Of a DNA stretch of 33,041 bases, positions 2,675-32,569 are shown one piece after another. Positions within the stretch are counted from its first letter, which is position 1; each line of letters opens with the position of its first letter. Where the stretch lies: NCBI GenBank assembly GCA_016869975.1, contig VGCZ01000049.1:1-33041 (forward strand). The letters run 5' to 3'. The notes under the pieces were generated by a model. That model was given only the letters and a program-made list of their open reading frames with translations, made no database searches and had not been told where the DNA came from. The DNA comes from Alphaproteobacteria bacterium. Lineage in GTDB: Bacteria; Pseudomonadota; Alphaproteobacteria; Reyranellales; Reyranellaceae. Made by a program: the position numbers and the translations under genes.

Positions 2675-2741
2675 TGTGCCTTCCGATGAGCTTACGTGGA
2701 TCACTCTGGAATAGACGCACTGGCGGTTCAAGCGCTCGGCG

Positions 2742-3719: not shown

Positions 3720-3750
3720 GCCGTCCTCTTCCGGGGACGCCGGCGTCCCA

Positions 3751-5496: not shown

Positions 5497-5524
5497 CGTG
5501 GCCGGACCGTGGCATGGTGGATGG

Positions 5525-7697: not shown

Positions 7698-8561
7698 ATG
7701 GACTACGAGCAGATCCAGTACGCGGTGAAGGACAACATCCTCACCCTGACGCTGAACCGTCCCGACAAGCTCAACGCCTTCACCGGCCGCATGCTCTCGG
7801 AGCTGCTCGACGCGCTCGATCGCGCCGATCGCGACGACGACGTGCGCGCCATCGTCTTCACCGGCGCCGGCCGCGGCTTCTGCGCCGGCGCCGACCTCTC
7901 GGGCGGCGCCAATACCTTCAACGCCGAGAATCGCGGCCCGGTCGATCCCGGCCTCGACGGCCATCGCGACGGTGGCGGGCTGCTGACCTTGCGCCTTTAC
8001 GAGAGCCTGAAGCCGACCATCGCCGCCTGCAACGGCCCGGCGGTGGGCGTGGGCATCACCATGCAGCTCGCCATGGACGTGCGCATGGCCTCGGAGGCGG
8101 CGCGCTATGGCTTCGTCTTCACGCGCCGCGCCATCGTCATGGAGGCCTGCTCGAGCTGGTTCCTGCCGCGCCTCGTCGGCCCGCAGCAGGCGCTGGAATG
8201 GGTGATGACCGGCCGCGTCTTCTCCGCCGAGGAGGCGCTGAACGGCCGCCTGGTGCGCTCGATCCACAAACCCGACGCGCTGCTGCCGGCGGCCTACGCG
8301 CTGGCGCGCGAGATCGCCGACAACACCGCGCCGGTCTCGGTGGCGCTCAATCGACAGATGATCTGGAAGATGCTGGGCGCCGACCATCCCATGGAGGCGC
8401 ACAAGGTCGACTCCAAAGGCATCTACGCCCGCGGCAAGTCGGCCGACGTCAAGGAAGGCGTGGTCGCCTTCCTCGAAAAGCGCCCGGCGCGCTTCCCGAT
8501 GAAGGTCACCGATGGCATGCCGAGCTACTTCCCGTGGTGGAAGGAGCGGACTTTCAGCTGA
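7698..8561 (+). CDS. Enoyl-CoA hydratase/isomerase family protein
   Basis: Crotonase-fold protein of 287 residues acting on an acyl-CoA thioester, probably in a catabolic pathway. The first oxyanion-hole segment FTGAGRGFCAGADL is at about 57-70 and the second, ACNGPAVGVGITMQLAMD, at about 113-130. An acidic residue (E in IVMEACSS, about 154) sits where the second catalytic Glu of crotonase is expected; the other Glu position is not acidic, so isomerase or hydrolase chemistry is possible. The ATG at 7698 is preceded by GGAGG at good spacing; 10 extra upstream codons were dropped. The C-terminus extends with FPMKVTDGMPSYFPWW, longer than usual. It meets the other crotonase tail to tail, with stops on adjacent bases. 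Confidence 0.9.
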   Translation: MDYEQIQYAVKDNILTLTLNRPDKLNAFTGRMLSELLDALDRADRDDDVRAIVFTGAGRGFCAGADLSGGANTFNAENRGPVDPGLDGHRDGGGLLTLRLYESLKPTIAACNGPAVGVGITMQLAMDVRMASEAARYGFVFTRRAIVMEACSSWFLPRLVGPQQALEWVMTGRVFSAEEALNGRLVRSIHKPDALLPAAYALAREIADNTAPVSVALNRQMIWKMLGADHPMEAHKVDSKGIYARGKSADVKEGVVAFLEKRPARFPMKVTDGMPSYFPWWKERTFS

Positions 8562-9386
8562 TCAGCGCCCGGTGAACTTCGGCGCGCGTTTCTCGACGTA
8601 GTGGGCGACGCCTTCCTTGAAGTCGTCGGCGGCGAAGCTCAGCTCCATCTCGTGGTTGGCCTTCACCGTCGCCTCGGCCAAGGTCTGGAACTGCGCCTCC
8701 CAGATCTGGCGCTTCATCACCGCCAGCGAGCGCGGCGAGACCGTCTCGGCCAGCAGCTTGGCGTAGGTCTTGGTCTCTTTCAGCAGATCGGCGTCGGGCA
8801 GCACGCGGTTGACCATGCCCAGCGCCAGCGCTTCCGGCGCGCGGAACTTCCTGGCCGAGAGCAGCAGGTCCATCGCCGCCGGCAGGCCGACGAAATGCGG
8901 CAGCAGCCACGACACGCCGTGCTCGGCGATCAGGCCGCGCGCGGCGAAGGCCGTCGTGAAGACCGCGTTCTCGGCGGCGTAGCGCATGTCGCAATAGAGC
9001 GAGATCACCAGGCCCAGCCCGGCGCAGGGGCCGTTGATCGCCGCGATGATCGGCTTGGGGATCGACGGGAAGTAAGAATAGTTCATGCGGAAATCGGCGA
9101 TGGCGCTACCGCCCGCCGGCACGTCCTGGGCCTTGCTCGCGCGCTCGGTCACCGCGCCCGCGGCGCCGATCTGCTGCAGCCCACCCATGTCGGCGCCGGC
9201 GCAGAAGCCGCGGCCCGCGCCGGTGAGGATGATCACCCGCACCTCGGGATCGGCGCCCGCCTCGTGCATGGCCCGCTTGAGCTCGTTGTGCATCGTGGCG
9301 GTCCAGGCGTTGAGCCGGTCGGGCCGGTTGAGCGTGATGGTGCGCACGCGGTCGGCGGTCTCGACGAGAATCTGCTCGTAGGCCAT
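8562..9386 (-). CDS. Enoyl-CoA hydratase/isomerase family protein
   Basis: Second crotonase-family protein, 274 residues. LTGAGRGFCAGADMGG (about 56-70) and AINGPCAGLGLVISLYCDMRY (about 115-135) form the oxyanion hole. The segment after them, FTTAFAARGLIAEHGVSWLLPHFVG, carries one Glu (in IAEHG) at the second catalytic position. The ATG at 9384-9386 follows GGAGGGA by 6 bases; the frame upstream of it is not needed. It shares the N-terminal MxYEQI and LTLNRPDxLNA patterns with the gene it faces, so the two are likely related by duplication and divergence. It diverges from the MaoC hydratase gene across a 256-base spacer. The CoA substrate is unknown. Confidence 0.9.
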   Translation of the reverse strand: MAYEQILVETADRVRTITLNRPDRLNAWTATMHNELKRAMHEAGADPEVRVIILTGAGRGFCAGADMGGLQQIGAAGAVTERASKAQDVPAGGSAIADFRMNYSYFPSIPKPIIAAINGPCAGLGLVISLYCDMRYAAENAVFTTAFAARGLIAEHGVSWLLPHFVGLPAAMDLLLSARKFRAPEALALGMVNRVLPDADLLKETKTYAKLLAETVSPRSLAVMKRQIWEAQFQTLAEATVKANHEMELSFAADDFKEGVAHYVEKRAPKFTGR

Positions 9387-9432
9387 GGACGTTCCCTCCG
9401 GAATGGGCGCGTTGCGCCGATGTCTGTTGATT

Positions 9433-9607
9433 CGGGACGCCGTCCATTGTGAGGTGGGCCAAAGCGGCGAACAAGCCGCGCCGACCGCCATACGGGACGC
9501 CGTGACAGATCAGACGCGCCTGGCCGCCGACCCATTCCGCACCCATGGTCTTTATCGACGGCATGAGCCGGTTTCGTTTGCACGACCGGCGGTTCGGCGT
9601 TACGCCG
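9433..9607. promoter_or_regulatory. Divergent control region with direct repeats and a palindrome
   Basis: The spacer between the minus-strand crotonase (start 9386) and the MaoC gene (start 9643) holds CGGGACGCCGT twice, at 9433-9443 and 9493-9503, exactly 60 bases apart. It also holds a perfect 13-base palindrome CGGCGTTACGCCG at 9595-9607, which lies between a weak -35-like TTGCAC (about 9579) and the MaoC ATG. These are visible repeats; binding by a regulator is only inferred. Confidence 0.3.
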
Positions 9608-9642
9608 GACCTTGAGCGATTGCTGAGCAGAGGGAGGACAGA

Positions 9643-10113
9643 ATGGCGAAGCGTACGGTGGACAGCCCGCAGGCGATGAAGGCGCTGGTCGGGCAGGAGC
9701 TGGGCGTCAGCGACTGGCTGGAGATCACCCAGGAGCGCGTCAACATGTTCGCCGACGCCACCGGCGACCATCAGTGGATCCATGTCGACGTCGAGCGCTG
9801 CAAGAAGGACATGCCCGACGGCAAGCCGATCGCGCACGGCTATCTCACCTTGTCGCTGATCCCCTGGTTCAGCCACAACGTCCTGCACGTCAACAACGTG
9901 CGCAACGGCATCAACTACGGCTCCAACAAGGTGCGCTTCACCAACCCGGTGCAGGTCGGCGCGCGGGTGCGCGGCCGGCAGAAGCTGGTGGCCGCCGAAG
10001 ACATGGCCAACAACGGCGTGCGCATGACCTACGAATGGACGATCGAGATCGAGGGCAAGGATCGTCCGGCCTGCGTCGCGGAAACCATGGGCATCGCCTA
10101 CGGCAAGGCATGA
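9643..10113 (+). CDS. MaoC-like (R)-specific enoyl-CoA hydratase
   Basis: Hot-dog-fold dehydratase of 156 residues that adds water to trans-2-enoyl-CoA, or a related thioester, to give the (R)-3-hydroxy product. The catalytic pair is visible as D42 and H47 in ATGDHQWIHVDVERC, matching the hydratase-2 motif, followed by PIAHGYLTLSL. The start at 9643 has a strong AGGGAGGA site. A ChaC-type gene begins 10 bases after its stop, so it leads a short operon with that gene and an EamA exporter, although no metabolic link is obvious. It faces a crotonase gene, and a shared role in fatty-acid or aromatic acid breakdown is plausible. Confidence 0.92.
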   Translation: MAKRTVDSPQAMKALVGQELGVSDWLEITQERVNMFADATGDHQWIHVDVERCKKDMPDGKPIAHGYLTLSLIPWFSHNVLHVNNVRNGINYGSNKVRFTNPVQVGARVRGRQKLVAAEDMANNGVRMTYEWTIEIEGKDRPACVAETMGIAYGKA

Positions 10114-10123
10114 GCGCCAGGAC

Positions 10124-10858
10124 GTGAACGATCACGATCCGTTGTCGAACGACAAGCCCACGATCTGGGGCAAGACGGGCCAGCCGCTGGTCCGCGAGGA
10201 GCTGACGGCGGAACGCATCGATCAGCTGGCCGAGGAGGCGCGCAAGCTCGGCTTCGACTACTTCCTGCCGCGCGAGGACCGCGACCAGCGGCTCACCGAC
10301 TGCCTGGCGAACTGGACCGAAGGCACCGACGCCTGGGTTTTCGGCTACGGCTCGCTGATGTGGAATCCGGCGTTCGACTTTGTCGAGCGTCGGCCGGCGC
10401 GGCTCGAGGGCTGGCGTCGCTCCTTCTGCTTCTGGACGCCCTTGGGTCGCGGCACGCCGGAACGGCCCGGCCTGATGCTGGGCGTCGAGAAGGGCGGCGC
10501 CTGCGACGGCGTCGCCTATCGCATCACCGCCTCGCAGGTCGAGACCGAGATCTCGATCCTGTTCAACCGCGAGATGCTGAGCGGCATCTACGACGCGCTG
10601 TGGGTGGACTGCACCGACGAGGCGGGCGGCGGGCTGCGGGCGCTGACCTTCGTGATCAATCCCGAACATCCCCAGTATTGCGGCGGCATGAGCGTGGCCA
10701 AGAAAGCCGAAAGCATGGCCTTCGCCGAAGGGCGCCGCGGCACCTGCCGGTCGTACCTGTTCGAATGCGCCGACCAGCTGCGCGCCATCGGCGTCGTCGA
10801 TCCCTATCTGGAGTCGCTGGAGAACGAGGTGCTGCGCCTGCGCGGCGGCCAGCGATGA
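10124..10858 (+). CDS. ChaC-type gamma-glutamylcyclotransferase
   Basis: Predicted cytosolic enzyme (244 residues) that cleaves glutathione or another gamma-glutamyl peptide to 5-oxoproline and the remaining part (Cys-Gly for glutathione). The family signature WVFGYGSLMWNP is at 71-82; E150 in NREMLSGIY is the likely catalytic glutamate. The domain continues to PQYCGGMSVAKKAE and ends with the amphipathic LESLENEVLRLRG tail typical of bacterial ChaC proteins. The first 65 residues are an extra leader also seen in proteobacterial relatives. The start is a GTG at 10124 with a weak CAGGAC site. Its stop overlaps the ATG of the following EamA exporter (ATGA), so the two are probably made together, which suggests that the exporter moves a product of this reaction. 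Confidence 0.88.
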   Translation: MNDHDPLSNDKPTIWGKTGQPLVREELTAERIDQLAEEARKLGFDYFLPREDRDQRLTDCLANWTEGTDAWVFGYGSLMWNPAFDFVERRPARLEGWRRSFCFWTPLGRGTPERPGLMLGVEKGGACDGVAYRITASQVETEISILFNREMLSGIYDALWVDCTDEAGGGLRALTFVINPEHPQYCGGMSVAKKAESMAFAEGRRGTCRSYLFECADQLRAIGVVDPYLESLENEVLRLRGGQR

Positions 10859-11781
10859 AGGCGCTCAGGACGTGGTGGGCGGCGCAGCCCGGCAATCTGC
10901 GGGGCATCATCCTGGTCGGCATTTCGGGCGTGCTGTTCTCGGCGCTGAACATCGCCACCTACTATCCGGCGCAGGAGCTCAACTCCTACATGATGGCGTT
11001 CTGCCGCTACCTGTTCGGCGCGGTGTTCCTGCTGCATGTCTTCTACCGCCACGGCCTGATCCGGCCGTTTCATACCCACAAGATCGGCACGCACGCCCTG
11101 CGCGGCGCCTTCCACAGCGCCGGCATGCAGCTGTGGTTCGTCGCCCTGCCGCTGATCACCCTGGCGGATCTGACGGCGCTGGGCTTCACCGGCCCGATTT
11201 TCGTCACCATCGGCGCGGCGCTGTTCCTCCGCGAGGACGTGCGCCTGCGGCGCTGGGCGGCGGTCGTCGTCGGCTTCATCGGCGCCATGATCATCATCCG
11301 GCCGGGCTTTGAGGTGATCACCTTGGGCGCCATCTGCGCGCTGGCATCGACGCCGCTGTTCTCGGCCTCGAACCTGATGGCCAAGTCGCTATCGACCACC
11401 GACCGCGCCGATACGATCGTGATCTACCAGTCGGCGTTCATCGTGCTGTTCGCCGCGCCCTTCGCGATCCTGCACTGGCAGCCGCTGACCTGGACGCATG
11501 TCGGCTGGTTCCTGCTGGCCGGCTTCTTCGGCACCGCCGGCCACTTGATCATGCAGCGCGGCTACCAGGTCGCCGAGATCTCGGCCCTGCAGCCGATCGG
11601 CTTCCTGTCGCTGATCTGGAACACGCTGTTCGGCTTCCTGCTGTTTGCGCAGAAGCCCGGCGTCTGGACCTTCGTCGGCGCCGCCGTGATCTTCGCCAGC
11701 GCGCTCTACATCTCGCACCGCGAGGCGGTGCGCCGCGCCCAGGTGCGCAGCGCCGACGCCAAGGGGCCGCCAGCACCGTGA
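10855..11781 (+). CDS. EamA/DMT-family transporter (copy 1)
   Basis: Ten-helix inner-membrane transporter of the drug/metabolite superfamily, 308 residues, made of two EamA halves (about 18-145 and 165-295). The first half contains LTALGFTGPIF and a RRWAAVVVGFIGAMIIIRPG helix pair; the second ends with ALYISHREA. The ATG overlaps the ChaC stop, giving translational coupling. The same sequence landmarks recur in the next two genes, so this is the first of three tandem paralogues. Characterised EamA members export amino-acid or cysteine-pathway metabolites, but the substrate here is unknown. A hairpin of the CCTTCTCCCC type follows the stop and may end the MaoC-ChaC-EamA transcript. Confidence 0.88.
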   Translation: MKALRTWWAAQPGNLRGIILVGISGVLFSALNIATYYPAQELNSYMMAFCRYLFGAVFLLHVFYRHGLIRPFHTHKIGTHALRGAFHSAGMQLWFVALPLITLADLTALGFTGPIFVTIGAALFLREDVRLRRWAAVVVGFIGAMIIIRPGFEVITLGAICALASTPLFSASNLMAKSLSTTDRADTIVIYQSAFIVLFAAPFAILHWQPLTWTHVGWFLLAGFFGTAGHLIMQRGYQVAEISALQPIGFLSLIWNTLFGFLLFAQKPGVWTFVGAAVIFASALYISHREAVRRAQVRSADAKGPPAP

Positions 11782-17090: not shown

Positions 17091-18272
17091 TCAGATGATA
17101 TTGCGCTCGATGACCGGGCGGTTCGCGGCGATTCGATCGAAGCCGAACGGCGCGAGGTCGAGACTGACGTAGCGGCCGTGCGCGATCAGCTCGGCGACGG
17201 CGCGGCCGGTCGCCGGCGATTGCTGAATGCCGTGGCCGCTGAAGCCTGTCGCGAAGATCAGGTTGGCGATCGTCGGATGGGGTCCGACGATGCCATTGTG
17301 ATCGAAGGTGTTGTACTCGTAGTAGCCGGCCCAGGCGCTCACCACCTTCACCGACTCGAAGGCCGGCACGCGCGCCGCAAGCGGCGGCCAGACCAGCTCG
17401 TCCCATTCGCTGTGGTCGACCTCGAGCGGCAGGCCGTCGACGTCGTTCTCTGGCTTCGGCGGCGCGCCCGCCAGCCAGTAGCGGCCCTCGGGGCGAAACC
17501 AGATGCCTGACGAATCGATGGTCAGCGGCGCGCCCTCGAAGCGCTCGCGGCAGTCGAAAACGAAGACGCAGCGTCGCCGCGCCTCGACCGGCAGCTTCAC
17601 GCCAGCCATCGCCGCAACCGACGCCGACCATGGGCCGCCGGCGTTGACGACGACGCCCGCCGATACCGACTCGCCGGAACGTAGACGCAGGGTGCTCACG
17701 CGGCTCGCCGACACATCGATGCCGACCACCTCGTCATGCAGGTAGACCGCGCCCTGCGACCGCGCCTTGCGGCGGAAGGCCTGCATCAGCGCCGGGCCAT
17801 CGAACCAGCCCTCGTTGGCGGTACCGAGTGAGGCCTGCACGACACCGTCGAGATTCATCCAGGGATAGCGCGCGACGACGGCGGCGGGGTCGAGCAGCGC
17901 CACGGCACAGTTCTCCGCGCGCTGGATGGCGTGGTTGTCACGCAGCACGCGCTCGCCGGCGGCCGTCGCCAGGAACAGGTAGCCCGGCTCGCGCAGGCCG
18001 AGCACGACGGGCGGCTCGCCTTCGACGCCGAGATACGCGTTGACGTCGCGCAGGAAGCCGATGCCGAAGCGCGACAGCGCGATGTTGAGCGGCGTGGAGA
18101 ATTGCTGGCGGATCGAGGAGGCGCTGAGCGCCGAGGAGGCGCGGGCGTAGGTCGGATCGCGCTCGATCACCGCGACGCGCCCGGCCCAAGCGGGATCGCG
18201 CGTCAGCCAATAGGCGATCGAGCTGCCGACGGCGCCGCCGCCCACGATCGCCACGTCGTAGGTCGCGCTCAT
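17091..18272 (-). CDS. DAO-family FAD-dependent oxidoreductase
   Basis: Flavoprotein of 393 residues in the glycine/sarcosine/D-amino-acid oxidase group. The ADP-binding turn VAIVGGGAVGSSIA is at 7-20 and E38 in VIERD binds the ribose. VVNAGGPWS (about 215) and ATGFSGHGIQQSPATGRAVAEL near the C-terminus are the second FAD-contact motifs. It would oxidise an N-methyl, imino or D-amino acid to an imine with H2O2 or a carrier as electron acceptor. The ATG at 18270-18272 overlaps the TRAP DctM stop (ATGA), so it is translationally coupled to the transporter. The same frame stays open far upstream, but that part is the antisense-free shadow of the TRAP genes. It is the last gene of the hydantoinase-TRAP operon, before a perfect hairpin. 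Substrate unknown. Confidence 0.9.
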   Translation of the reverse strand: MSATYDVAIVGGGAVGSSIAYWLTRDPAWAGRVAVIERDPTYARASSALSASSIRQQFSTPLNIALSRFGIGFLRDVNAYLGVEGEPPVVLGLREPGYLFLATAAGERVLRDNHAIQRAENCAVALLDPAAVVARYPWMNLDGVVQASLGTANEGWFDGPALMQAFRRKARSQGAVYLHDEVVGIDVSASRVSTLRLRSGESVSAGVVVNAGGPWSASVAAMAGVKLPVEARRRCVFVFDCRERFEGAPLTIDSSGIWFRPEGRYWLAGAPPKPENDVDGLPLEVDHSEWDELVWPPLAARVPAFESVKVVSAWAGYYEYNTFDHNGIVGPHPTIANLIFATGFSGHGIQQSPATGRAVAELIAHGRYVSLDLAPFGFDRIAANRPVIERNII

Positions 18273-19570
18273 GACAGGACACGCGGCAGCCACAAGGCGA
18301 TGTCGGGGAACACGGTGATCAGCATGGTGAACAGCACCATAATGATCAGGTAGGGCAAGGTGACGCGCGCGATGTAGCCCAGGCCGTCCTGCGTCAACCC
18401 CTGGATCACGAACAGGTTGAAGCCCACGGGCGGCGTGATCTGCGCCATCTCGACTACCAGCACCAGGAAGATGCCGAACCAGATCTCGTCGAAGCCGGCC
18501 GCCTTCACGATCGGCAGCACGATCGGCAGGGTCATGACGATCATGCTGAAGCCGTCGAGGAAGCATCCCAGCAAGATGTAGAAGGCCATCAGCGCGACGA
18601 TCAGCATGAACGAGGACAGGCCGAGACTCTTCACGAAACCCGCGATGGCGGCGGGGATGCCGAGAAACGCCGCGGCGTTGCCGAGGATCGAGGCGCCCAG
18701 CACGATCATCGCGATCATGCTGCAGGTCAGCACCGAGCCGATCGCCACCTCGCGCAGCGCCCGCCAAGTGAGCCCGCCCTGGGCGCGAGCCACGAGCACG
18801 GCGCCCAGCACGCCGACCGCCGCAGCCTGCGAGGGCGTCGCCAGGCCGCCATACATCGAGCCCAGCACGCAGAGGATCAGGAAGATCGCCGGCGCGAGAT
18901 CGCGCAGCGACGCGAAACGTTGCGACCACGGCATGTGCCGCATCGCGTGCTCGCCGGCCGGCACAAGCGATGGCTTGACCGTGGTGTGGATCATCACCCA
19001 GGCCATGAAGCACATCGCCAGCAGCACGCCCGGGATGAACCCGGCGGTGAACAGCTTCAGCACCGAGACATCGCCCAGCACGCCGTAGATGATCATGATG
19101 TTCGAGGGCGGAATCAGGAATCCCAAGGTGCCCGCGCCGGCGAGGCTGCCGACGGCGATGTCCTTGGAGTAGCCGCGCCGCGTCAGTTCCTCGAGCGAGA
19201 TGCGGCCGACGACCTGGGTCGTCGCCGCCGAAGATCCCGAGATCGCCGCGAAGATCGAGCAGCCGACGACGTTGACGTGCACCAGGCGTCCGGGCAGCAA
19301 CGCCGCCCACGGCGCGAGGCCGGCGAACAGCTTGCGCGAGAGCTGGGTGCGGAATAGCAATTCGCCCATGACGATGAACAGCGGCAGCGCCAGCAGCTCC
19401 TGCGTCGTCAGGATGTTCCAGGTGTATTGCGGCAGCAGGCGTTCGAGCGGGATGTCGCGAAAGACGAAGAGCAGGACGACGCCGGTCAGGCCCAGGGTCA
19501 GGCCGATCCAGATGCCGCCGGCAAGCGCGCTGAACAGCACCGCAAACATGGTCGAGACGGCGGAGAACAT
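18269..19570 (-). CDS. TRAP transporter large permease subunit (DctM-type)
   Basis: Large membrane subunit of a tripartite ATP-independent periplasmic transporter, 433 residues and about 12 helices, which uses the sodium or proton gradient to import the solute presented by the DctP-type protein. Characteristic stretches are AAISGSSAATTQVVGRI (about 110), TLGFLIPPSNIMIIYGV (about 150) and MAQITPPVGFNLFVIQGL near the C-terminus. The ATG at 19568-19570 begins 3 bases after the DctQ stop, and its own stop overlaps the oxidase start, so DctQ, DctM and the oxidase form a tightly coupled block. Confidence 0.95.
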   Translation of the reverse strand: MFSAVSTMFAVLFSALAGGIWIGLTLGLTGVVLLFVFRDIPLERLLPQYTWNILTTQELLALPLFIVMGELLFRTQLSRKLFAGLAPWAALLPGRLVHVNVVGCSIFAAISGSSAATTQVVGRISLEELTRRGYSKDIAVGSLAGAGTLGFLIPPSNIMIIYGVLGDVSVLKLFTAGFIPGVLLAMCFMAWVMIHTTVKPSLVPAGEHAMRHMPWSQRFASLRDLAPAIFLILCVLGSMYGGLATPSQAAAVGVLGAVLVARAQGGLTWRALREVAIGSVLTCSMIAMIVLGASILGNAAAFLGIPAAIAGFVKSLGLSSFMLIVALMAFYILLGCFLDGFSMIVMTLPIVLPIVKAAGFDEIWFGIFLVLVVEMAQITPPVGFNLFVIQGLTQDGLGYIARVTLPYLIIMVLFTMLITVFPDIALWLPRVLS

Positions 19571-19573
19571 CGC

Positions 19574-20206
19574 CTATTCCGCCACGCTGGCGACGCGCAG
19601 CCGCGGATCCTCGAGCGGCAGGCCGCAAACCGCTTGCAGGAACCGCGCGACGAACTGCAACGCGAGCAGCGTGATACCGAAGGTGATCAAAGCCTGCGGT
19701 ATCCACACCGGCGTGTCGCTGTTGATCGACGTGGCGCCGCGCACATAGGAGCCCCAGCTGAACATCACCATCGAGTAGGCGAGGAAGCCCGACATCAGCA
19801 GCCCGGCGAGCGCGGCGACGATCTCGAACAGGCGTCGCCGTCCCGGCGACAGCCGCGCCAGCAGCAAGGTGACTCGGATATGGCCGCCAGCGCGCAAGGT
19901 CATGGCCGCGCCGAAGGTGAAGCTCGCGGCCATCAGGTAGGAGCTGTATTCCCAGGCGTTGGGTACGCTCGCCGGCATGTCGGCCGGCAGCCAGGCGACG
20001 CCCTTGGCGCGCAGCCAGTAGACGCTGTTGGCGACGGCGCTGACCACCACCTCGGTGATCATCAGCATCGTCAGCAGAATCAGGCAACCGCCGGCGATCC
20101 AGCCATCGAGCCGGCCAAGCCGGTCGATGGCGTCGAGCACCGGACGCAGGATCGCGGGCGCGCCCTCGTTGAGGCTCGGCCCGCGAGCCTCGGCGCTATC
20201 GGTCAC
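19574..20206 (-). CDS. TRAP transporter small permease subunit (DctQ-type)
   Basis: Four-helix small membrane subunit, 210 residues. Helices fall at about 37-60, 90-110, 130-152 and 170-192; the family pattern TFGAAMTLRAGGHIRVTLL is visible after helix 2. A GTG at 20204-20206 is chosen as start because GGAG lies 9 bases upstream; a TTG at 20213-20215 is the alternative and would add 3 residues. The N-terminal ~35 residues are a polar cytoplasmic leader. The gene lies 19 bases after the DctP stop and 3 bases before DctM, the normal DctP-DctQ-DctM order. Confidence 0.9.
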   Translation of the reverse strand: MTDSAEARGPSLNEGAPAILRPVLDAIDRLGRLDGWIAGGCLILLTMLMITEVVVSAVANSVYWLRAKGVAWLPADMPASVPNAWEYSSYLMAASFTFGAAMTLRAGGHIRVTLLLARLSPGRRRLFEIVAALAGLLMSGFLAYSMVMFSWGSYVRGATSINSDTPVWIPQALITFGITLLALQFVARFLQAVCGLPLEDPRLRVASVAE

Positions 20207-20225
20207 CGGCCGCAACTCCGCCGGA

Positions 20226-21236
20226 TCAGGCGCGCTTGATCTCGGCGAGATATGCCTTGATCGGCTTCTCCGAGGCGCCGACGCGCTTCATGTAGGCGTC
20301 GAGCAGGCTCGCGGTGCGGCCGCGCAGATCGGTCATCATGGCGGCCGACGGCACGACCAATTGCATGCCGCCCTCGGTCAGCCGCTTGGCACTGTCGGTG
20401 TCGGCCTTCTGGCTGGTCGCCCAGAACTGCGGCTCCATCTTCGCCGCCAGCTCGACCACCGCCTTCTGGTGCGCCGTCGACAGCTTCTTCCAGGCGTCGT
20501 TGTTGACCGTGACGATCTGCGAGGACCACTGGTGGTTGGTCTGGTGGAAGAACTTCAGGAACTCCCAGAACTTGCCGTCGACGCCCGACACCGACGAGGT
20601 CGACACGCCGGCGACCGCGCCCGAGGCCAGCGCCGGGATGGTCTCGCCCCACGGGATCAGCGCCGGCGCCATGCCGATCGCCGCCGTCAGGTCCTGCGAA
20701 TTCTTGTCCGGCACGCGGATCTTGATGCCCTTCAGCGCGTCGACCGTCTCGGCCTTGATCTTGAGGTGCAGGTACTGCGTCGGCCACGGCACCATGTAGA
20801 GGATCGTCTGGTTGTTGCGCGCGGCGACCTTCTCGTACTCGGGCCTGATGTGCTTGTGCAGCGCCTTGAGTTCGTCGGCGTTGCCGACCAGGAACGGCAC
20901 GCCCTCGGTGCCCAGCAGCGGCTCGTCGCCGACCTGCTGCACGTTGAGGATGTCGGCCATCGGCACCAGCCCGTCGCGCACCGCGCGCAGATGCTCGGGC
21001 CCCTTGAAGCCAAGCTGGCCGCCGGCCTTCACCGTGATCTCAAGGGCGCCGCCGGTAACCTTCTTCACCTCCTCGGCGAAGAGCTTGCAATTCTGGGTGT
21101 GGAAGTTGCTGTCCGGCCACACCGTCGACAGATCCCACTTCACCGTCGACTGCGCGCGCGCCACCCACGGCATCGCCAAAGTCATGGTCGCCGCGCCAGC
21201 GCCGATCCGGAAAACCCGCCTGCGTGAAACGCTCAT
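20226..21236 (-). CDS. TRAP transporter substrate-binding protein (DctP-type)
   Basis: Periplasmic binding protein of 336 residues. The signal peptide starts MSVSRRRVFRIGAGAATM and ends near AQS (about 30); the RRxF arrangement fits export by the Tat system, which is used by some TRAP binding proteins. The mature part has the DctP fold. R174 in GIKIRVPD is the conserved arginine that, in characterised TRAP proteins, clamps a carboxylate of the ligand, so the solute is probably an organic acid. ATG 21234-21236 follows GGGGGTGGA by 2-3 bases; an ATG at 21260 overlaps the HyuB stop and would add 8 residues before the signal peptide. It is encoded between HyuB and the two permease genes. Confidence 0.93.
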   Translation of the reverse strand: MSVSRRRVFRIGAGAATMTLAMPWVARAQSTVKWDLSTVWPDSNFHTQNCKLFAEEVKKVTGGALEITVKAGGQLGFKGPEHLRAVRDGLVPMADILNVQQVGDEPLLGTEGVPFLVGNADELKALHKHIRPEYEKVAARNNQTILYMVPWPTQYLHLKIKAETVDALKGIKIRVPDKNSQDLTAAIGMAPALIPWGETIPALASGAVAGVSTSSVSGVDGKFWEFLKFFHQTNHQWSSQIVTVNNDAWKKLSTAHQKAVVELAAKMEPQFWATSQKADTDSAKRLTEGGMQLVVPSAAMMTDLRGRTASLLDAYMKRVGASEKPIKAYLAEIKRA

Positions 21237-21256
21237 CGTCCACCCCCTGTTGTTGG

Positions 21257-22924
21257 TCATTCCGCCGCTTTCAGCGGCAGCCCGTAGACACGCTGGGCCG
21301 TCTCGCGCGAGACCAGCCCTTCCTCGACATCATGTGCAACCGCTTGCGGATCGCGCGACCTGGGATCGCCGATCCCGGCGCCGCCCGGCGTCATCACCAC
21401 GAGCCGCTCGCCCGGCGCGATCTGCTGGAAGCCCTTGCCCTTGAGCTTCTGACCCGTCGTCAAGCCGACATAGCCCGCCGCGCCATCGACGCCGCCGTCG
21501 CGGCCGCGCGGCGGATAGTCGATGCGATCGTAGGCGGCCAGCAGGTCGAACGGCAGGTCGATGCCCGAGGATATCTCGATGATCTGGCCCATGCCGCCGC
21601 GCGTGCGGCCGGCGCCGCCGCTTTCGGGCCGCAGCTCCTTCTTCCAGAAGATCAGCGGCGTGATCGACTCGGCGATCTCCACCGGCGTACCGCGCACGCC
21701 GGAGGGATAGGCCGTCGCCGACAGGCCGTCGGCCGCCGGCCGCGCGCCGGTGCCGCCGTTGCTGGTGATGGCGACGGAGAACCCGTAATTGCCACCGTCG
21801 CCGTCCTTCACCCTGCCGCGCACGTTGATGTTCCACAGGCACGACGTACCCTCGGCCGGCACACGATCGGGAATCGCCTGGCGCATGCAGCCGAACACCA
21901 TGTCCGGCAGCATCTGGCCGATGATATGGCGCGACAGCACAGGCGCGGGCTTCTGCGCGTTGAGGATCGTGCCTTTGGGCGCCGACACGGTAAGCGGCTC
22001 GAGCGAACCGGCGTTGTTGGGAATGCGCGCGCTGACGATGCAGCCCAGGCCGAAGACGGTGTAGGCCGTGGTGTAGGCGTGCGGCACGTTGATGCCGCCC
22101 CTGGCCTGCGGATCGGTGCCGGTGTAGTCGACGTGGATCCCGGTGTCGCTCACGGTGGTCGTCGCCACCAGCTTGATCGGCGCGTCGTAACCGTCGATCG
22201 TCATCTCGTTGCGCCAGCTGCCCTTGGGCAGCTTGGCGATCTCGGCCAGCACCGCGGCGCGGCTGTTGTCGATGACGAAGGTCGCGAGCTCGTCGAGATC
22301 GTCGAGCTTGAACTCCTCCATCATCTCGACGAGGCGGCGGCAGCCGACGTCATTGCAGCCGGCCAAGGAGTAGACGTCGCCTTCGGTGTCGACCGGCGTG
22401 CGCGTATTGGCGCGGATCATCGCCATCAGGGTCTCGTTCATCTTGCCTTGCTCGGCGAGCTTGAGCATGGGGATGTAGAGACCCTCCATGAACACGTCGG
22501 TGGCGTCGGGCCCGAAGCCGATGCCGCCGATATCCATGATGTGGCTGGTGCACGAGAACAGCGCCACCAGCCGGCCGTTCTTGAAGCACGGCGTGGTCAG
22601 CACGAAGTCGTTGGTGTGGCCGGTGCCCATCCACGGGTCGTTGGTGATGTAGATGTCGCCGGCCTTCATGGTCTCGACCGGGAAGTGGCGAATGAAATGC
22701 TTCACCGACTCGGCCATCGAGTTGACGTGGCCCGGCGTGCCGGTGACCGCCTGCGCCAGCATGCGGCCTTTCAGATCGAAGACCCCGGCCGACAAGTCGC
22801 CGGCCTCGCGCACGATCGAGCTGAAAGCCGTGCGCATCAGGGTCTGGGCCTGCTCTTCGACCACCGCGATCAGGCGGTTCCACATGATCTGCAGGTCGAT
22901 TTGGCCAAGGCTGTTGGACGCCAT
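21257..22924 (-). CDS. Hydantoinase B / 5-oxoprolinase beta-type subunit
   Basis: Subunit of 555 residues of an ATP-dependent hydantoinase or oxoprolinase, which opens a cyclic amide. Family landmarks are IVREAGDLSAGVFD (about 37-50), ITNDPWMGTGHTNDF (about 88-102), SHIMDIGG (about 125), DYTGTDPQARGGIN (about 265) and the glycine-rich C-terminal GGYGxx-type block with TPGGAGIGDP. ATG 22922-22924 is 12 bases from AGGAGA. Length and motifs are normal, so it appears functional. It is separated from its HyuA partner by an MFS gene and a palindromic element, and is followed at once by the TRAP binding protein, whose upstream start codon would overlap its stop. Hydantoin, N-methylhydantoin and 5-oxoproline remain possible substrates. 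Confidence 0.93.
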   Translation of the reverse strand: MASNSLGQIDLQIMWNRLIAVVEEQAQTLMRTAFSSIVREAGDLSAGVFDLKGRMLAQAVTGTPGHVNSMAESVKHFIRHFPVETMKAGDIYITNDPWMGTGHTNDFVLTTPCFKNGRLVALFSCTSHIMDIGGIGFGPDATDVFMEGLYIPMLKLAEQGKMNETLMAMIRANTRTPVDTEGDVYSLAGCNDVGCRRLVEMMEEFKLDDLDELATFVIDNSRAAVLAEIAKLPKGSWRNEMTIDGYDAPIKLVATTTVSDTGIHVDYTGTDPQARGGINVPHAYTTAYTVFGLGCIVSARIPNNAGSLEPLTVSAPKGTILNAQKPAPVLSRHIIGQMLPDMVFGCMRQAIPDRVPAEGTSCLWNINVRGRVKDGDGGNYGFSVAITSNGGTGARPAADGLSATAYPSGVRGTPVEIAESITPLIFWKKELRPESGGAGRTRGGMGQIIEISSGIDLPFDLLAAYDRIDYPPRGRDGGVDGAAGYVGLTTGQKLKGKGFQQIAPGERLVVMTPGGAGIGDPRSRDPQAVAHDVEEGLVSRETAQRVYGLPLKAAE

Positions 22925-22976
22925 AGTCTGGTGACTCTCCTGGACGTGGAGCGACGCAAACTCCGTGCCGCGGACC

Positions 22977-24380
22977 TTAGGGGTTTGCGGCGCGCGCCGC
23001 CAGTGCGGTCGTGCGAATGGCGGCAAGGAAGGCGCCGACCGCCAGGGCGGCGGCGACGCCGAAGACAACCATGACGGCTGAAATCATGTCGTCCTGGCTC
23101 GCCGCGCGGGTGAAGCCGGCGAGATTGGCGACCAGGCCGGTGACGGCGCCGCCCACGGCGTAACCCGCTGATTGCACCGTGGGCAGCAGGCCGGAAGCGC
23201 GGTCGCGCTCGCCGTCGCCGGCCGCCTCCATGACGGTCTGGTTCAGGAAGCCCCAGGTGACGCCGAAGCCCGCGCCGACCGCGACCTGGGCCACGACCAG
23301 CAGCGCCACCATTTCGTAGCGGAACGCCAGCAGGGTGCCGACGAACCCAAGCGCCAGCAGGACCGGGCCGGCGCACACTGCGAGGCGCCGGCGGCCTGCG
23401 CTCAAGATGTTGGCGATCGGGATGGCCGCGCCGCTCCACGACAGCGCCATGATCGCGCCGATGGCGCCGGCCAGCGTCGGCGTGAAGCCCCAGAGCTTCT
23501 GCAACAGCAGCACGAGGTAGACGGTGGAAGCCGACTGCGCCATCGGCATCAACAGCACGACCCACAGGCCATTGCCGACGATGGTGCGCAAAGAAAAGGC
23601 GTCGCGCGGCATCAGCCGCGTGCCGCCACGACGATCGAGCAGCACGGCCGAGGTCAGCAGGATCGCGGCCGCCACCAGCAATGCGGCCGAGACCTGGACA
23701 TCGCGCGCGATGCTGGCCAGCGAGACCAGCATGATGCCGACGCCGATGATCGCGAGCCTGGTCATCGGCAACGAGAAGCGGCCGGGCTCCGGCGCGGCGC
23801 GCGGCACGACCCAAAGCACAAGGGCGATGAAGATCGCCGCCAGGGGCACGTTGACGAGAAAGGCGGCGCGCCAGGAGATGTATTGCGTGAGCGCGCCGGC
23901 GAGCAGCGGCCCGCCGAAACCGGCGATCGCCCAGACCACCGCTTCGACGCCGAACACCTTGGGCACGAGCTTGAGCGGATAGAGCTCGATGGTCAGCACC
24001 GAGACCAGGCCGGCAACGATGCCTTGACCCACGCCCTGCAGGGCGCGGCCGACCAGTACTTCGGGCATGGTCGAGGCGACGCTGGCGACGACCGAGCCGA
24101 GCATGAACACCATCGCGGCCGCCGCCAGCGCGAGCCGCGCGCTGAAGCGGCGCTTGAGCAGCGCCGAGGACGCGCCGCTCATGATGGCGAAGACCAGATA
24201 GACCGTGAGCGACCAGGAGATCAGCGCCAGGCCGTCGAGCTCCTGCACCGCGGTCGGCAGCGCCGTGGCCACCAGGAAGGTGTTGAAGGCGTATAGCGCC
24301 ACGCCCAGGCACAACGTCGCCGTCGTCGCCAGATAGGTCGGACGAAATACCTCGCCCCAGCCACCGCGTTCTTCCGCCAT
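22977..24380 (-). CDS. MFS transporter, DHA2 (14-TM drug/proton antiporter) type
   Basis: Major facilitator protein of 467 residues with about 14 hydrophobic helices. The motif GRALQGVGQGIVAGLVSVLTIELYP (about 112-136) is the motif-C-like antiporter helix pair, and the loop-2 region SSALLKRRFSARLAL (about 70-85) is the decayed motif A. The ATG at 24378-24380 begins 27 bases downstream of a palindromic repeat. It lies 52 bases before HyuB on the same strand, so it is probably in the hydantoinase-TRAP operon, acting in either uptake or export. I infer export because the antiporter motif is present. The ligand is unknown. Confidence 0.88.
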   Translation of the reverse strand: MAEERGGWGEVFRPTYLATTATLCLGVALYAFNTFLVATALPTAVQELDGLALISWSLTVYLVFAIMSGASSALLKRRFSARLALAAAAMVFMLGSVVASVASTMPEVLVGRALQGVGQGIVAGLVSVLTIELYPLKLVPKVFGVEAVVWAIAGFGGPLLAGALTQYISWRAAFLVNVPLAAIFIALVLWVVPRAAPEPGRFSLPMTRLAIIGVGIMLVSLASIARDVQVSAALLVAAAILLTSAVLLDRRGGTRLMPRDAFSLRTIVGNGLWVVLLMPMAQSASTVYLVLLLQKLWGFTPTLAGAIGAIMALSWSGAAIPIANILSAGRRRLAVCAGPVLLALGFVGTLLAFRYEMVALLVVAQVAVGAGFGVTWGFLNQTVMEAAGDGERDRASGLLPTVQSAGYAVGGAVTGLVANLAGFTRAASQDDMISAVMVVFGVAAALAVGAFLAAIRTTALAARAANP

Positions 24381-24406
24381 GCCGCCGCGCCTATCGCATC
24401 AGGCTT

Positions 24407-24508
24407 CGACCTCACCCTGAGGAGCGTCACGAAGGGTGGGCAACCTGCTCGATTTCTGTGGCCCATGCTTCAAGACGGCCGCGAAGCGGCCTCCTCAGCA
24501 TGCGGTCG
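24407..24508. repeat. Dispersed palindromic repeat between HyuA and MFS genes
   Basis: Terminal arms 24407-24424 and 24491-24508 match at 15 of 18 positions, and a perfect 6-bp hairpin GGCCGC-GAA-GCGGCC lies at 24477-24491. The pattern (CTGAGGAG ... CTCCTCAG with an internal hairpin, about 100 bases) matches a class of alphaproteobacterial intergenic repeats known to me. It fills the whole HyuA-MFS gap and could attenuate or process the operon RNA. Confidence 0.65.
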
Positions 24509-24520
24509 TGGTAAACCTCG

Positions 24521-26614
24521 TCACGCCCGCCGCCGCTCCAGCGTGATGCCGCCGGCGTTGTCGAGCCAGGCGTCGAACAGCGCCGAGACGAAGGTCGAGG
24601 TCTCGTCCTCGGCGATGATCGCCGGGCCTGGCACGACGCCGCCGGGCTTCATATCGCCGCGCCAATACACCGGCACGTCGACGCGCTTCGACAGGCGCGC
24701 GTCGTAGAAGGCGCGGCTGCCGATCGGCTTGGGTCCCGCGCCGCGTGACGGGTCGGCGACGGCATCAGGCCGCGTCGCCTCGGTCGAGACCGTCACCGAC
24801 CAGCTCAGTACCTCGATGACGGCGTTGGGGATGAAGCGCTCGAAGAGCTGCGCGTATTCCTTCTCGTAGGCGCTGCGCATCGTGGCGGCGTCGGCACCGG
24901 TCAACGGCCGCGCCGGCAGCGGCACGACGATCTCGTGGCCCTGGCCGAGATAGCGCATGTAGGCGACGCGGGTCTCGAACACCGGCCGGCCGGCGGCGCC
25001 GGGCGCCACCAGCGCCTGCGCCTCCGCGCTCATCGCCTCGATCACGGCGTTGGCCGCGGCGGCGTCGAAGCGGTCGAGCCGCATGTAGCGGCTGCGCACC
25101 AGTTCGTAGGCCACCGGCGCGCGCAGGAAGCCCACCGCCGAGCCGACGCCGGCATTGGCCGGCACGACGATGCGGGCGATGCCGAGCTTCTCGGCCAGGC
25201 GCGAGGCGTGCAGCGGTGCCGCGCCACCGAAGGCGATCAAGGTGTGCTCGCCGATCACCGCGCCGCGCTCGACGGCATGCACGCGCGCGGCGTTGGCCAT
25301 GTTCTCGTCGACGATCTCGCCCACGCCGTACGCGGCCGTCTCGCTGCCCAGCGACAGAGGCTGACCGACCGCGCGATCGACGGCGCCGCGCGCCGCCTCG
25401 ACGTCGAGCGCGATGGTGCCGCCGGCGAAGCGCGCCGGATCGATCTTGCCCAGCACGACGTCGGAATCGGTCACCGTTGGCAGCATGCCGCCGCGGCCAT
25501 AGCTCGCCGGGCCGGGCTCGGAGCCGGCGCTGTCGGGTCCGACGGTGATGCGGCGCAGCTCGTCGACGCGCGCGATCGAGCCGCCGCCGGCGCCGATCTC
25601 GACCATCTCGATCACCGGCACGCGCACCGGCAGGCCGCTGCCCTTGAGGAACCGCGCGGCGCGATCGACCTCGAAGGCGCGCGACTTGAACGGCGTGTAC
25701 TCCTGGATCAGGCAGATCTTCGCCGTCGTGCCGCCCATGTCGAAGGACAGCACCTTGCGCTCGCCGCGCTCGGCGGCGACGTTGGCGGCGAGGATCGCGC
25801 CGCCGGCGGGTCCGGACTCGACAAGACGGATGGGAAAGCGCCGCGCCGTCTCCAGCGCCGTGAGACCGCCGCCCGAGGTCATCAGGTAGACCATGCCCTT
25901 GAAGCCTTCGGCGGCGAAGCCGTCGCGCAGCCGCGCCAGGTAGCCCGCCATCAGCGGCTGGATGTAGGCGTTGGCGATGGTCGTCGAGGTGCGGTCGTAC
26001 TCGCGCACCTCCGGACAGACTTCGCAGCTCAGGGTCAGCGACAGCGACGGCAGCATCTCGCGCAGAATCTCGCCCGTCCGCCGCTCGTGCGCCTCGTTGG
26101 CGTAGGAATGCAGATAGGTGATCGCGACCGACTCGACGCCGGCTTCGGTGAGCTTCGGCACCAGCGCGCGCACGGCGGACTCGTCGAGCCCCAGGCGCAC
26201 GGCGCCGTGCACGTCGACGCGCTCGGGCACGGTGAAGCGCAGCGCGCGCGGCACCAGCTGGCGCGGCTTCTCGATGAATACGTCGTACTGGTCGTAGCGG
26301 CTCTCGTAGGCGATCTCGATCGTGTCGCGAAAGCCATCGGTGGCGATCAGCGCCGTCTTGGCCCCCTTGCGCTCGATGATGGCGTTGGTCGCCAACGTCG
26401 TGCCGTGGACGAAGACGTCGATGTCGGCGAAGCCGACTCCGGCGTCGGCGAGGATAGCGCGCGTGCCGTCGAGCACGCCTTGCTCCGGCGCGCGCGGCGT
26501 CGTCAGCACCTTGCGCGTCAAGCGCCTGCCGTCCCGCCCCGCCTCGCCGATTTCCAGCACTATGTCGGTAAACGTGCCGCCGATATCGACGGCCAGACGC
26601 GTGGATGACGCCAC
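24521..26614 (-). CDS. Hydantoinase A / 5-oxoprolinase alpha-type subunit
   Basis: ATP-binding subunit of 697 residues of a hydantoinase or 5-oxoprolinase. The acetate/sugar-kinase-like phosphate motif DIGGTFTD is at 10-17, with VHGTTLATNAIIERKG (69-84) and a second phosphate site FDMGGTTAKI (291-300). EIGAGGGSIA (about 345) and a late FGGAAPLHA (about 465) complete the typical pattern. The start is a GTG at 26612-26614, preceded at 6 bases by AGGGG after an A-run. This is the first gene of the minus-strand operon and diverges from a small lipoprotein gene. The products would phosphorylate and open a cyclic amide, with HyuB giving the hydrolase part. Substrate is not identified by motifs. Confidence 0.94.
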   Translation of the reverse strand: MASSTRLAVDIGGTFTDIVLEIGEAGRDGRRLTRKVLTTPRAPEQGVLDGTRAILADAGVGFADIDVFVHGTTLATNAIIERKGAKTALIATDGFRDTIEIAYESRYDQYDVFIEKPRQLVPRALRFTVPERVDVHGAVRLGLDESAVRALVPKLTEAGVESVAITYLHSYANEAHERRTGEILREMLPSLSLTLSCEVCPEVREYDRTSTTIANAYIQPLMAGYLARLRDGFAAEGFKGMVYLMTSGGGLTALETARRFPIRLVESGPAGGAILAANVAAERGERKVLSFDMGGTTAKICLIQEYTPFKSRAFEVDRAARFLKGSGLPVRVPVIEMVEIGAGGGSIARVDELRRITVGPDSAGSEPGPASYGRGGMLPTVTDSDVVLGKIDPARFAGGTIALDVEAARGAVDRAVGQPLSLGSETAAYGVGEIVDENMANAARVHAVERGAVIGEHTLIAFGGAAPLHASRLAEKLGIARIVVPANAGVGSAVGFLRAPVAYELVRSRYMRLDRFDAAAANAVIEAMSAEAQALVAPGAAGRPVFETRVAYMRYLGQGHEIVVPLPARPLTGADAATMRSAYEKEYAQLFERFIPNAVIEVLSWSVTVSTEATRPDAVADPSRGAGPKPIGSRAFYDARLSKRVDVPVYWRGDMKPGGVVPGPAIIAEDETSTFVSALFDAWLDNAGGITLERRRA

Positions 26615-31018: not shown

Positions 31019-32347
31019 TTACGCGGCCCGGGCCACCGCGCGTGCCCGGTCGAACAGCGCGCGGTTGTGCGGGCTGCTCGGCTTGACCTCGCGGCGTTCC
31101 GCCGTGAGCGCACGGGCCAGCGCGGTGTCGCCGCCGCGCTGCGCCGCCTCGATCATCGTCAGGTCGAGCAGGTCGCGCTGGGCGTGGCTACCGCCGAAAC
31201 GGCTGGCGACGCCGATCACCGGCCGCAGCAGGCAGACGACGCGCTTGTGGTCGCCGTCGCCGAAGGCCTTGAGCGCCAGCGACAGCGGCCGGCCGACGTC
31301 GCGCGTGAACATCGCGTTGTCGTCGTCGCGCGCCATCGCCCTCTCCTGCGCCTCCAGCACCTCGACCATCTGCGCCGTGCGGCCGGTGGCGACGAAGGCC
31401 ATCATGGCGTGCGCGTCGTTGAAGGCGTAGTTGCCGGCCGAGGCGAAGGCCGCCCACTGGTCCGCCAGCGGCCGCCAACGATCGCCGACATCGACGCCGC
31501 GCAGCATCAGCCGCCACAGCATCGCCGAATGGTCGATCAGCTCGAGCGCCACCGCCGAGCGGCCGCCATTGATCGGCCCGTCGTAGAGCTTCAGCACCTC
31601 GTCGATCTCGCCGAGATCGAGGTGATAGAGCGCCAGATGCCACCAATTGTGCACGGCGAAGAAGCTGTCGCGCGTCCAGTCGTCGGGCGCGGCGCGCATC
31701 CAGGCGATACCGTCGGCCTGGCGGCCCTGCATCTCCAGGACATGCGCCACCGCGTGCTGCGCCCAGGAATCGCGCGCGTCGAGCTCGACGGCGCGCCTGC
31801 CCTGGCGCTCGGCCCGGGCGTAGTCGCCGCACTCCTCCAGCCCGAAGGCGTGCATGCCGAGCAGCGCGTGGTAGCCCGGCATGCCGGGGCTCCACTCCGG
31901 CAGAGCGCGCGCGATGCGGTCGCGCAGCAAGCGCGCGTTGCCGGTGAAGAAGTCGACCTGGTGGCCGACCTGCAGCGCCAGCGCGTCGTGCGGATTGTCG
32001 ATGGCGACCTGGGCCAGGGTGCGCGACGCGTCCCACCAGCGATTCTCGATCACCTGGCCGATTGCCGCGACATGGCCCTGCTCGCGCGCCGTGGCCGCCG
32101 CCGCCTTGGCCGCGGCGTGGGCGGCGCGCGCCGGCTCGAAGCCGCCCGGCTCGGTGCCGAGCAGAAACAGCCAGGCCTTCAGCGCATGCGCCATGGCGAA
32201 GCCGGGACTGTCGGCGATCGCGGCGTCCGCCTTGGCCAGCGGGTCGTTGCGGTAGACGCGCAGCAAGTCCAGCGCCGCCTCGTAGTGCTCGCGCGCCGCG
32301 GCCGAGGCGCCGGTCAACGCATTTCCGTGGGTATCTCTGATCAACAT
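31019..32347 (-). CDS. TTC38-type tetratricopeptide repeat protein
   Basis: A 442-residue protein built largely of paired helices, predicted cytoplasmic. Segments such as YHALLGMHAFGLEECGDYARAERQGRRAVELDARDSWAQHAVAHVLEMQGRQADGIAWM (about 155-225) and VHNWWHLALYHLDLGEIDEVLKLYD (about 235-260) match TTC38, a family shared by bacteria and animals and lacking a defined biochemical role. An ATG at 32345-32347 fits GGAG at 6 bases; an ATG two codons earlier would abut the site. It diverges from the terminase gene over a 267-base spacer and ends before a perfect hairpin. The function is unknown. Confidence 0.85.
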   Translation of the reverse strand: MLIRDTHGNALTGASAAAREHYEAALDLLRVYRNDPLAKADAAIADSPGFAMAHALKAWLFLLGTEPGGFEPARAAHAAAKAAAATAREQGHVAAIGQVIENRWWDASRTLAQVAIDNPHDALALQVGHQVDFFTGNARLLRDRIARALPEWSPGMPGYHALLGMHAFGLEECGDYARAERQGRRAVELDARDSWAQHAVAHVLEMQGRQADGIAWMRAAPDDWTRDSFFAVHNWWHLALYHLDLGEIDEVLKLYDGPINGGRSAVALELIDHSAMLWRLMLRGVDVGDRWRPLADQWAAFASAGNYAFNDAHAMMAFVATGRTAQMVEVLEAQERAMARDDDNAMFTRDVGRPLSLALKAFGDGDHKRVVCLLRPVIGVASRFGGSHAQRDLLDLTMIEAAQRGGDTALARALTAERREVKPSSPHNRALFDRARAVARAA

Positions 32348-32569
32348 AGTCATCTCCAGACGGTTGCGCGGCGACGACATGCCCGGGAGCAGATCGTCAC
32401 CACTTCGATGACGAACGACCTACCTCAATCCACCACGCGCCTCTGTTCCCGAGGGCACTAAAATTGTCCCTCTCCTCCGGATGACAGGAAGTGCACGCTA
32501 TCTCCACCGTAACGGCAAGCAAAAGGCCTGTGCCATCGGCATCGGAGGCCTCCATTCGACGCTCGTAGA

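Follow-up and report, generated by a model that had tools for sequence, protein, structure and literature searches.

A HyuAB-TRAP gene order conserved in Reyranellales and Bradyrhizobium, a probable module that imports 5-oxoproline or a near relative and opens its ring with ATP

What compound is handled by a bacterial operon that joins genes carrying the common annotation label "hydantoinase" to those of a tripartite ATP-independent periplasmic (TRAP) transporter? We addressed this question with a 33,041-nucleotide stretch of DNA (assembly GCA_016869975.1, contig VGCZ01000049.1), hereafter the window, which is one whole contig (C49) of the 4.84-Mb genome of an alphaproteobacterium of the order Reyranellales, from a family that includes Reyranella records. 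Seven genes on its minus strand, at 17091–26614, encode HyuA, a major facilitator superfamily (MFS) transporter, HyuB, DctP, DctQ, DctM and a D-amino-acid oxidase (DAO)-family flavoprotein; each has a Pfam match, which bears out the order and coordinates given in an initial annotation made from the sequence. Our analysis indicates that the core of this operon probably encodes a system that takes up 5-oxoproline (pyroglutamate), the ring form of glutamate, or a close relative, and then opens the ring at the expense of ATP.

HyuA (24521–26614; 697 amino acids from a GTG start; PF05378, PF01968 and PF19278) and HyuB (21257–22924; 555 amino acids; PF02538, E 1.1e-151) are the predicted subunits of an ATP-dependent lactam hydrolase, HyuA being the one that binds ATP and HyuB the one with the metal site. 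Between them lies the MFS gene (22977–24380; PF07690), of the DHA2/EmrB-like type, with a TIGR00711 score of 95.7 bits, which is under the cut-off. The linked TRAP components follow in tandem: the solute-binding protein DctP, which resembles pyroglutamate binders (20226–21260; PF03480, E 2.5e-32), the small membrane subunit DctQ (19574–20215; TTG start; PF04290, E 3.6e-20) and the large membrane subunit DctM (18269–19570; PF06808, E 7.4e-78; TIGR00786 above its cut-off). The last gene encodes the DAO-family flavoprotein, hereafter DAO (17091–18272; PF01266, E 1.1e-54), a FOXRED1-like protein that we treat as accessory, its link to the pathway being uncertain. HyuA and the MFS gene are separated by 140 bp, and the MFS gene and HyuB by 52 bp. 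From HyuB through DAO the genes were initially described as overlapping or nearly touching, and this is what the coordinates give, with reading-frame overlaps of 4 bp (HyuB/DctP and DctM/DAO) or gaps of at most 10 bp (10 bp for DctP–DctQ, 3 bp for DctQ–DctM).

We examined how far this arrangement is conserved, resting our claims on tblastn or Pfam matches, as the script gene calls, based on codon-position G+C, include wrong frames. A DctP match at E <= 1e-60 was present in 61 of the 76 genomes of the order. We took the surroundings from 44 of the 60 such genomes other than that of the window and regarded a locus as testable when at least 4.2 kb upstream was present; five of the 44 end too soon upstream of DctP for the HyuA/HyuB test. 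In 33 of the 39 testable Reyranellales loci, both HyuA and HyuB stood no more than 4.5 kb upstream of DctP and in the same orientation. A second set of named genomes, mostly Bradyrhizobium and Reyranella and sharing genomes with the first, comprised the best 80 of 178 loci, and among these both genes stood just upstream of DctP in 66 of the 67 that were testable. DctQ and DctM followed DctP in 41/42 loci of the order and in 75/75 named loci, again among the best 80 of 178. Because this five-gene order recurs across loci, the operon is more than a chance arrangement, and the conserved unit in these soil bacteria is HyuA-HyuB-DctP-DctQ-DctM. The linkage of HyuA and HyuB to the TRAP genes, on which the initial annotation had staked its reading, is thus kept in relatives.

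The seven genes do not form one fixed unit, and their description as a single pathway was not supported. Among the loci searched, the MFS gene was confined to the window's genus (L039, L041/L132 and the window itself; L and G numbers are our handles for loci and genomes), and within 9 kb after DctM the DAO gene occurred in only four of 33 order loci. In most loci other genes took its place there: a glutamine-synthetase-like gene in 28/33, a dimethylglycine dehydrogenase (DMGDH)-like gene in 27/33 and an Fe-alcohol dehydrogenase gene in 24/33. A search for the same seven-gene order recovered its five-gene core repeatedly, but all seven genes in only two further genomes, both of the window's genus (L039 in G004; L041 and L132 in G005). 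The MFS protein is not needed in the pathway proposed below, and the DAO gene is lineage-specific. We also noted two variants of the locus. Two tandem DctP genes precede DctQ and DctM in L045/L137 and L048/L144, and Reyranella sp. CPCC 100927 (L053/L198) has HyuB-DctPQM-DAO with the upstream HyuA missing; downstream, only a few genes away, it carries a PxpA-family (LamB_YcsF) gene.

The sequences of HyuA and HyuB assign them to the ATP-dependent lactamase (oxoprolinase/hydantoinase) family, with a predicted ring-opening activity. The phosphate and adenosine motifs and the Asp-His-Asp-His metal site of these enzymes are defined in the accessible part of PMC8453981. HyuA has the ATP motifs at residues 10, 292 and 364 of its translation, P0001 (DxGGTxTD, DxGGT and GxxPGP). 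The phosphate motifs are kept in 101–102 of 102 sequences, the exceptions including one Glu; in the adenosine motif PGP is invariant (102/102), and the first G is G in 54/102. The metal site of HyuB consists of D44, H104, D107 and H129, in the numbering of P0003, whose count starts one residue ahead of the ATG, and aligns to D41, H99, D102 and H124 of CapB. H104, D107 and H129 are kept in 110/110 sequences and D44 in 109, with one gap.

The best solved relatives of both subunits are the N-methylhydantoinase 7hk5 and the caprolactamase 6yra. We rejected membership in the caprolactamases: HyuA scores 492.5 bits with the CapA model and HyuB 224.4 bits with the CapB model, against an NCBIfam equivalog cut-off of 1000, and the vicinal Cys410-Cys411 of CapB falls in a gap in HyuB, whose sequence contains Cys-Cys nowhere. 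Nor are they PxpABC, as they match families other than PF03746 (PxpA), PF02682 (PxpB) and PF02626 (PxpC). That HyuAB might be not a hydrolase but an acetone/acetophenone-type ATP-dependent carboxylase is suggested by the shared superfamily and by matches to the ApcC and ApcA models; given that the scores lie far under the cut-offs (260.5 versus 1500 bits) and that HyuAB is nearer to lactam hydrolases, we give this very little credence. Close HyuAB relatives were also found without this TRAP transporter, for example in L216 and L217, where a proline-racemase-family gene (PF05544, tested in L216) at 8314–9327 and 4958–5971, respectively, adjoins HyuAB about 70% identical to that of the window. 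Elsewhere, L220 has two tandem HyuB genes behind one HyuA (7834–11372), and in the window's genome another HyuA-family gene is broken into two neighbouring reading frames (L083, 8527–10697).

What the transporter binds bears on the substrate of the enzyme. We modelled DctP with AlphaFold2 from a 17-row alignment (mean predicted local distance difference test score, pLDDT, 83.4). The three nearest solved structures, by Foldseek and by VIA-align, were 2pfz, 2pfy and 6wgm, all titled as pyroglutamate binders, and the sequence search ranked the same three first. VIA-align gave Z 37.5, 37.0 and 36.3 with root-mean-square deviations of 2.1–2.5 Å over 298–302 residues, the next match having Z 34.9. 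The arginine typical of TRAP binding proteins is R182, counted from the first ATG, and is invariant in alignments of 17 and 25 sequences; it is the carboxylate-clamping R174 of the initial annotation, which counted from the ATG at codon 9. W159, P160, Q162, R182, S222 and D228 are common to DctP and all three pyroglutamate binders in the alignment; other residues near the presumed pocket differ. Thus, the modelled fold and the arginine agree with pyroglutamate binders, an agreement that does not imply the same pocket.

A second line of evidence came from distant relatives of DctP. Scanning 289 and 398 genomes yielded 15 distant matches, a number that excludes Reyranellales and five 69–70% relatives from one other family, and we took 13 loci. 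PxpABC is an established prokaryotic 5-oxoprolinase, according to the accessible text of PMC13274462. PxpA, PxpB and PxpC lay beside the homologous TRAP genes in three of the 13 loci, from three families (L222, L224 and L232); in L222, where identity is 51% for DctP and 64% for DctM, all three are on the DctPQM strand. HyuA and HyuB stood beside the DctP relative in four others, on the opposite strand in L219, L220 and L221 and on the same strand in L234. The TRAP subfamily is hence accompanied by PxpABC or HyuAB in 7/13 distant loci, or 7/8 outside one well-supported clade. That a single TRAP subfamily is accompanied by either of two unrelated kinds of enzyme, both credited with hydrolysing 5-oxoproline, argues for 5-oxoproline-like substrates. 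Together with the structural matches of DctP, these neighbourhoods support the earlier proposal of an acidic solute, 5-oxoproline rather than plain hydantoin.

From the gene content and order, their conservation, the intact catalytic residues and the kinship of DctP to pyroglutamate binders, we infer a substrate, a reaction, a direction of transport and a flow between the genes. In the periplasm, DctP would capture 5-oxoproline or a five-membered lactam acid much like it, with R182 holding the carboxylate, and DctQM would bring it in, driven by an ion gradient. HyuA would then use ATP to phosphorylate the lactam, and ring opening would be finished at the metal site of HyuB, yielding glutamate, plain or substituted. 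The probable substrate of the DAO flavoprotein, in loci that have it, is a cyclic amino acid or one with a secondary amine.

Several observations weigh against this interpretation. Six order loci with DctP are without one or both of HyuA and HyuB upstream (L042, L053, L055, L072, L073 and L076), and neither PxpABC nor HyuAB occurs in six of the 13 distant loci, namely L223 and the clade of L225–L228 and L233 (support 1.000). In the DctP tree the solved pyroglutamate binders fall together with L104 in a clade of their own (support 0.999), apart from the window's DctP, which groups with L222, and in the alignment several residues near the presumed pocket differ from those of the solved binders. 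N-methylhydantoinase outscores caprolactamase somewhat as a match of HyuA (363 versus 334 bits) and of HyuB (219 versus 172 bits), so the substrate is not fixed by sequence. Finally, a LamB_YcsF (PxpA-family) gene is present in 51/51 good genomes of the order and in 73/76 of all, and because all the good genomes carry such a gene, plain 5-oxoproline may be handled elsewhere than by HyuAB. The window's genome has two of these genes, and PxpB-like matches flank the LamB_YcsF gene in both loci examined (L209 and L210).

A gene for a ChaC-family gamma-glutamylcyclotransferase lies about 6 kb from the operon (10124–10858, plus strand). The ChaC family makes 5-oxoproline from glutathione. ChaC is near HyuAB in the window's genus and also in L143 and L213; yet 75/76 genomes of the order have ChaC, mostly in two copies listed elsewhere, and its proximity to HyuAB is weak evidence.

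The enzyme scores also raise an alternative substrate, hydantoin or N-methylhydantoin, in a creatinine-type route with DAO as a sarcosine oxidase. Besides 7hk5 as the best solved relative of both subunits and the likeness of DAO to sarcosine oxidase, this route could draw on the TIGR01879-family genes of the genome and on a creatininase-family gene about 4 kb from HyuAB in L215. However, among the loci annotated, carbamoylase, creatinine and hydantoin-racemase genes were missing both from the operon and from its conserved neighbours, the relatives of the TRAP protein bind a carboxylate (pyroglutamate), and PxpABC beside homologous TRAP genes favours 5-oxoproline. The absence of a carbamoylase, which the initial annotation had pointed out, is correct for the window's genes but neutral as an argument, since the genome has seven matches to TIGR01879 (hydantoinase/carbamoylase family) at E <= 0.001, at least two of them above the cut-off. 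The hydantoin route is not supported, and we consider it improbable.

What, then, is the role of the flavoprotein at the end of the operon? The DAO model has a pLDDT of 92.4, and its top nine solved matches are sarcosine oxidase beta, P. horikoshii L-proline dehydrogenase and DMGDH (Z 43.4–45.2); glycine oxidase (Z 41.6), monomeric sarcosine oxidase (41.0) and D-arginine dehydrogenase (40.3) come lower. The modelled fold thus places DAO in the sarcosine/proline/dimethylglycine branch; among NCBIfam models, it reaches no cut-off. DAO is about 49.1% identical over 387 residues to a presumed human FOXRED1 sequence, a figure that a bias of that sequence towards the window protein may affect. The presumed sequence has the published length of 486 residues and fits eight of eight residue checks, seven at positions named in the accessible part of PMC7887287 and the eighth at R136. 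At the positions matching the disease-variant sites R352 and N430 of FOXRED1, R occurs in 47/47 and N in 43/47 bacterial relatives. Human FOXRED1 is mitochondrial and is described, in the accessible portions of PMC7887287 and PMC4992684, as an assembly factor or chaperone for complex I; no substrate for it was found in these portions.

The genomic distribution of DAO is mixed. It is present in 69/289 genomes of the class, and DAO and HyuB co-occur by genome (32/57 versus 37/232; Fisher p 2.5e-9, which ignores kinship and genome size). A HyuB-family gene lies within 5 kb of DAO in five of the 32 genomes having both (G000, G072, G097, G325 and G353), against 0.11 expected by a crude random placement that ignores kinship; two of the five belong to the order, and two share a family. 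The contexts of 38 DAO loci examined outside the order are diverse, with HyuA or HyuB near in three (L107, L117 and L128) and a TRAP set, 6WGM-like, just upstream in one (L104).

In the order, a ureohydrolase gene lies within about 16 kb of the DAO ortholog in all nine loci examined (the window, L039, L040, L041, L053, L058, L062, L109 and L110), and is adjacent to it or one gene away in six. The region usually also contains genes for M20 and MlrC proteins, joined in Reyranella by one for an aminotransferase. In the window the ureohydrolase, of the agmatinase/arginase family (2742–3785, minus strand; PF00491; TIGR01230 at 180.8 bits versus a cut-off of 174.3), is followed by an M20-family peptidase/amidohydrolase (1280–2731, minus strand; PF01546; NF005478 above its cut-off). 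Because the ureohydrolase is near DAO in 9/9 loci, DAO may instead belong to a separate module with these genes and be a mere neighbour of HyuAB-TRAP. The overlap of the DctM and DAO reading frames in the window speaks against such a separation, as do the HyuAB-DAO neighbourhoods in other families (L107, L117 and L128, 3/38 outside the order) and the TRAP-DAO neighbourhood in L104. We put this possibility at a little short of an even chance; it concerns DAO alone and is compatible with the opening of a 5-oxoproline-type lactam by HyuAB.

If DAO instead shares the pathway, the substrate might be an N-substituted 5-oxoproline, which would be imported by the TRAP transporter and opened by HyuAB to an N-substituted glutamate, whose secondary amine DAO, or in Reyranella the DMGDH-like protein, would oxidise to free glutamate. 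Both flavoenzymes found after DctM come from secondary-amine-oxidising families, which fits this scheme, as do the excess of DAO-HyuB neighbours, the joining of DAO to a 6WGM-like TRAP in L104 and the possibility that plain 5-oxoproline is left to PxpABC. On the other hand, most core loci are without DAO, DAO in the order is nearer to the ureohydrolase gene than to HyuAB, and the one solved opine dehydrogenase, 7fgp, ranks 41st among the structural matches of DAO (Z 37.9). We consider this route unlikely. An extended form, for which gene neighbourhood and fold are the evidence, is that the operon degrades N-substituted 5-oxoproline lactams with the FOXRED1-like flavoprotein freeing glutamate, and that the ureohydrolase and aminotransferase serve arginine-derived substituents, as in opine lactams; we hold this to be a long shot. 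Pyronopaline is an example of such a gamma-lactam (accessible part of PMC4192606), and flavin opine dehydrogenases belong to the DAO superfamily (accessible part of PMC4575208). If true, the ancestral chemistry of the FOXRED1 family would be oxidation of a glutamate- or proline-related secondary amine, a testable substrate class for the human protein.

Two features near the right end of the window complete its description: a phage terminase small-subunit family protein (PF03592; 32615–33040, plus strand), which runs off the contig end, and a 453-residue reading frame (31019–32380, minus strand) with no Pfam match at E <= 0.001.

How does the proposed uptake and opening of a 5-oxoproline-type lactam compare with known systems? 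In Bordetella, DctP6 and DctP7 bind 5-oxoproline, and a gene for a eukaryotic-type 5-oxoprolinase lies in the vicinity (accessible parts of PMC13274462 and PMC12344293). The B. pertussis proteins are TRAP binding proteins of the same fold as the window's DctP, with 28–30% identity over the whole domain, and have an oxoprolinase gene nearby. As far as these sources go, however, that oxoprolinase is of the eukaryotic type and merely in the vicinity, whereas here two subunit genes stand in one order with the TRAP genes, and the DctPs fall in separate clades. The pxpTABC operon of Corynebacterium glutamicum likewise combines uptake with ATP-dependent opening of 5-oxoproline; according to the available portion of PMC13274462, however, its enzyme is unrelated in sequence and PxpT is an APC-superfamily carrier, not a TRAP transporter. 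CapAB of Pseudomonas jessenii (6yra), an ATP-dependent lactamase, likewise consists of two subunits and has its ATP and metal sites in common with HyuAB (accessible part of PMC8453981), but HyuA and HyuB reach half or less of its equivalog cut-offs, and HyuB has a gap at the vicinal Cys-Cys of CapB. The N-methylhydantoinase 7hk5, the best solved match of both subunits, is by contrast a single chain of 1288 residues with Gln for His at the fourth metal-ligand column. The presumed human FOXRED1 sequence shares about 49% identity with DAO over 387 residues; the human protein is mitochondrial, whereas the bacterial gene ends a catabolic-looking operon. If DAO shares the chemistry of the pathway, this operon offers a way to seek the substrate of a family linked, through its human member, to mitochondrial disease.

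No paper on a HyuAB-TRAP operon was found in open-access full text. TRAP receptors for 5-oxoproline with an oxoprolinase gene nearby have already been described in Bordetella; to these we add a HyuAB-TRAP operon with split subunits, which Reyranellales and Bradyrhizobium conserve, and the comparison with PxpABC. For Reyranella and Bradyrhizobium, a common "hydantoinase" label thereby becomes a 5-oxoproline-type uptake-and-opening module that can be tested, and one TRAP subfamily is seen beside two unrelated enzyme types credited with hydrolysis of 5-oxoproline.

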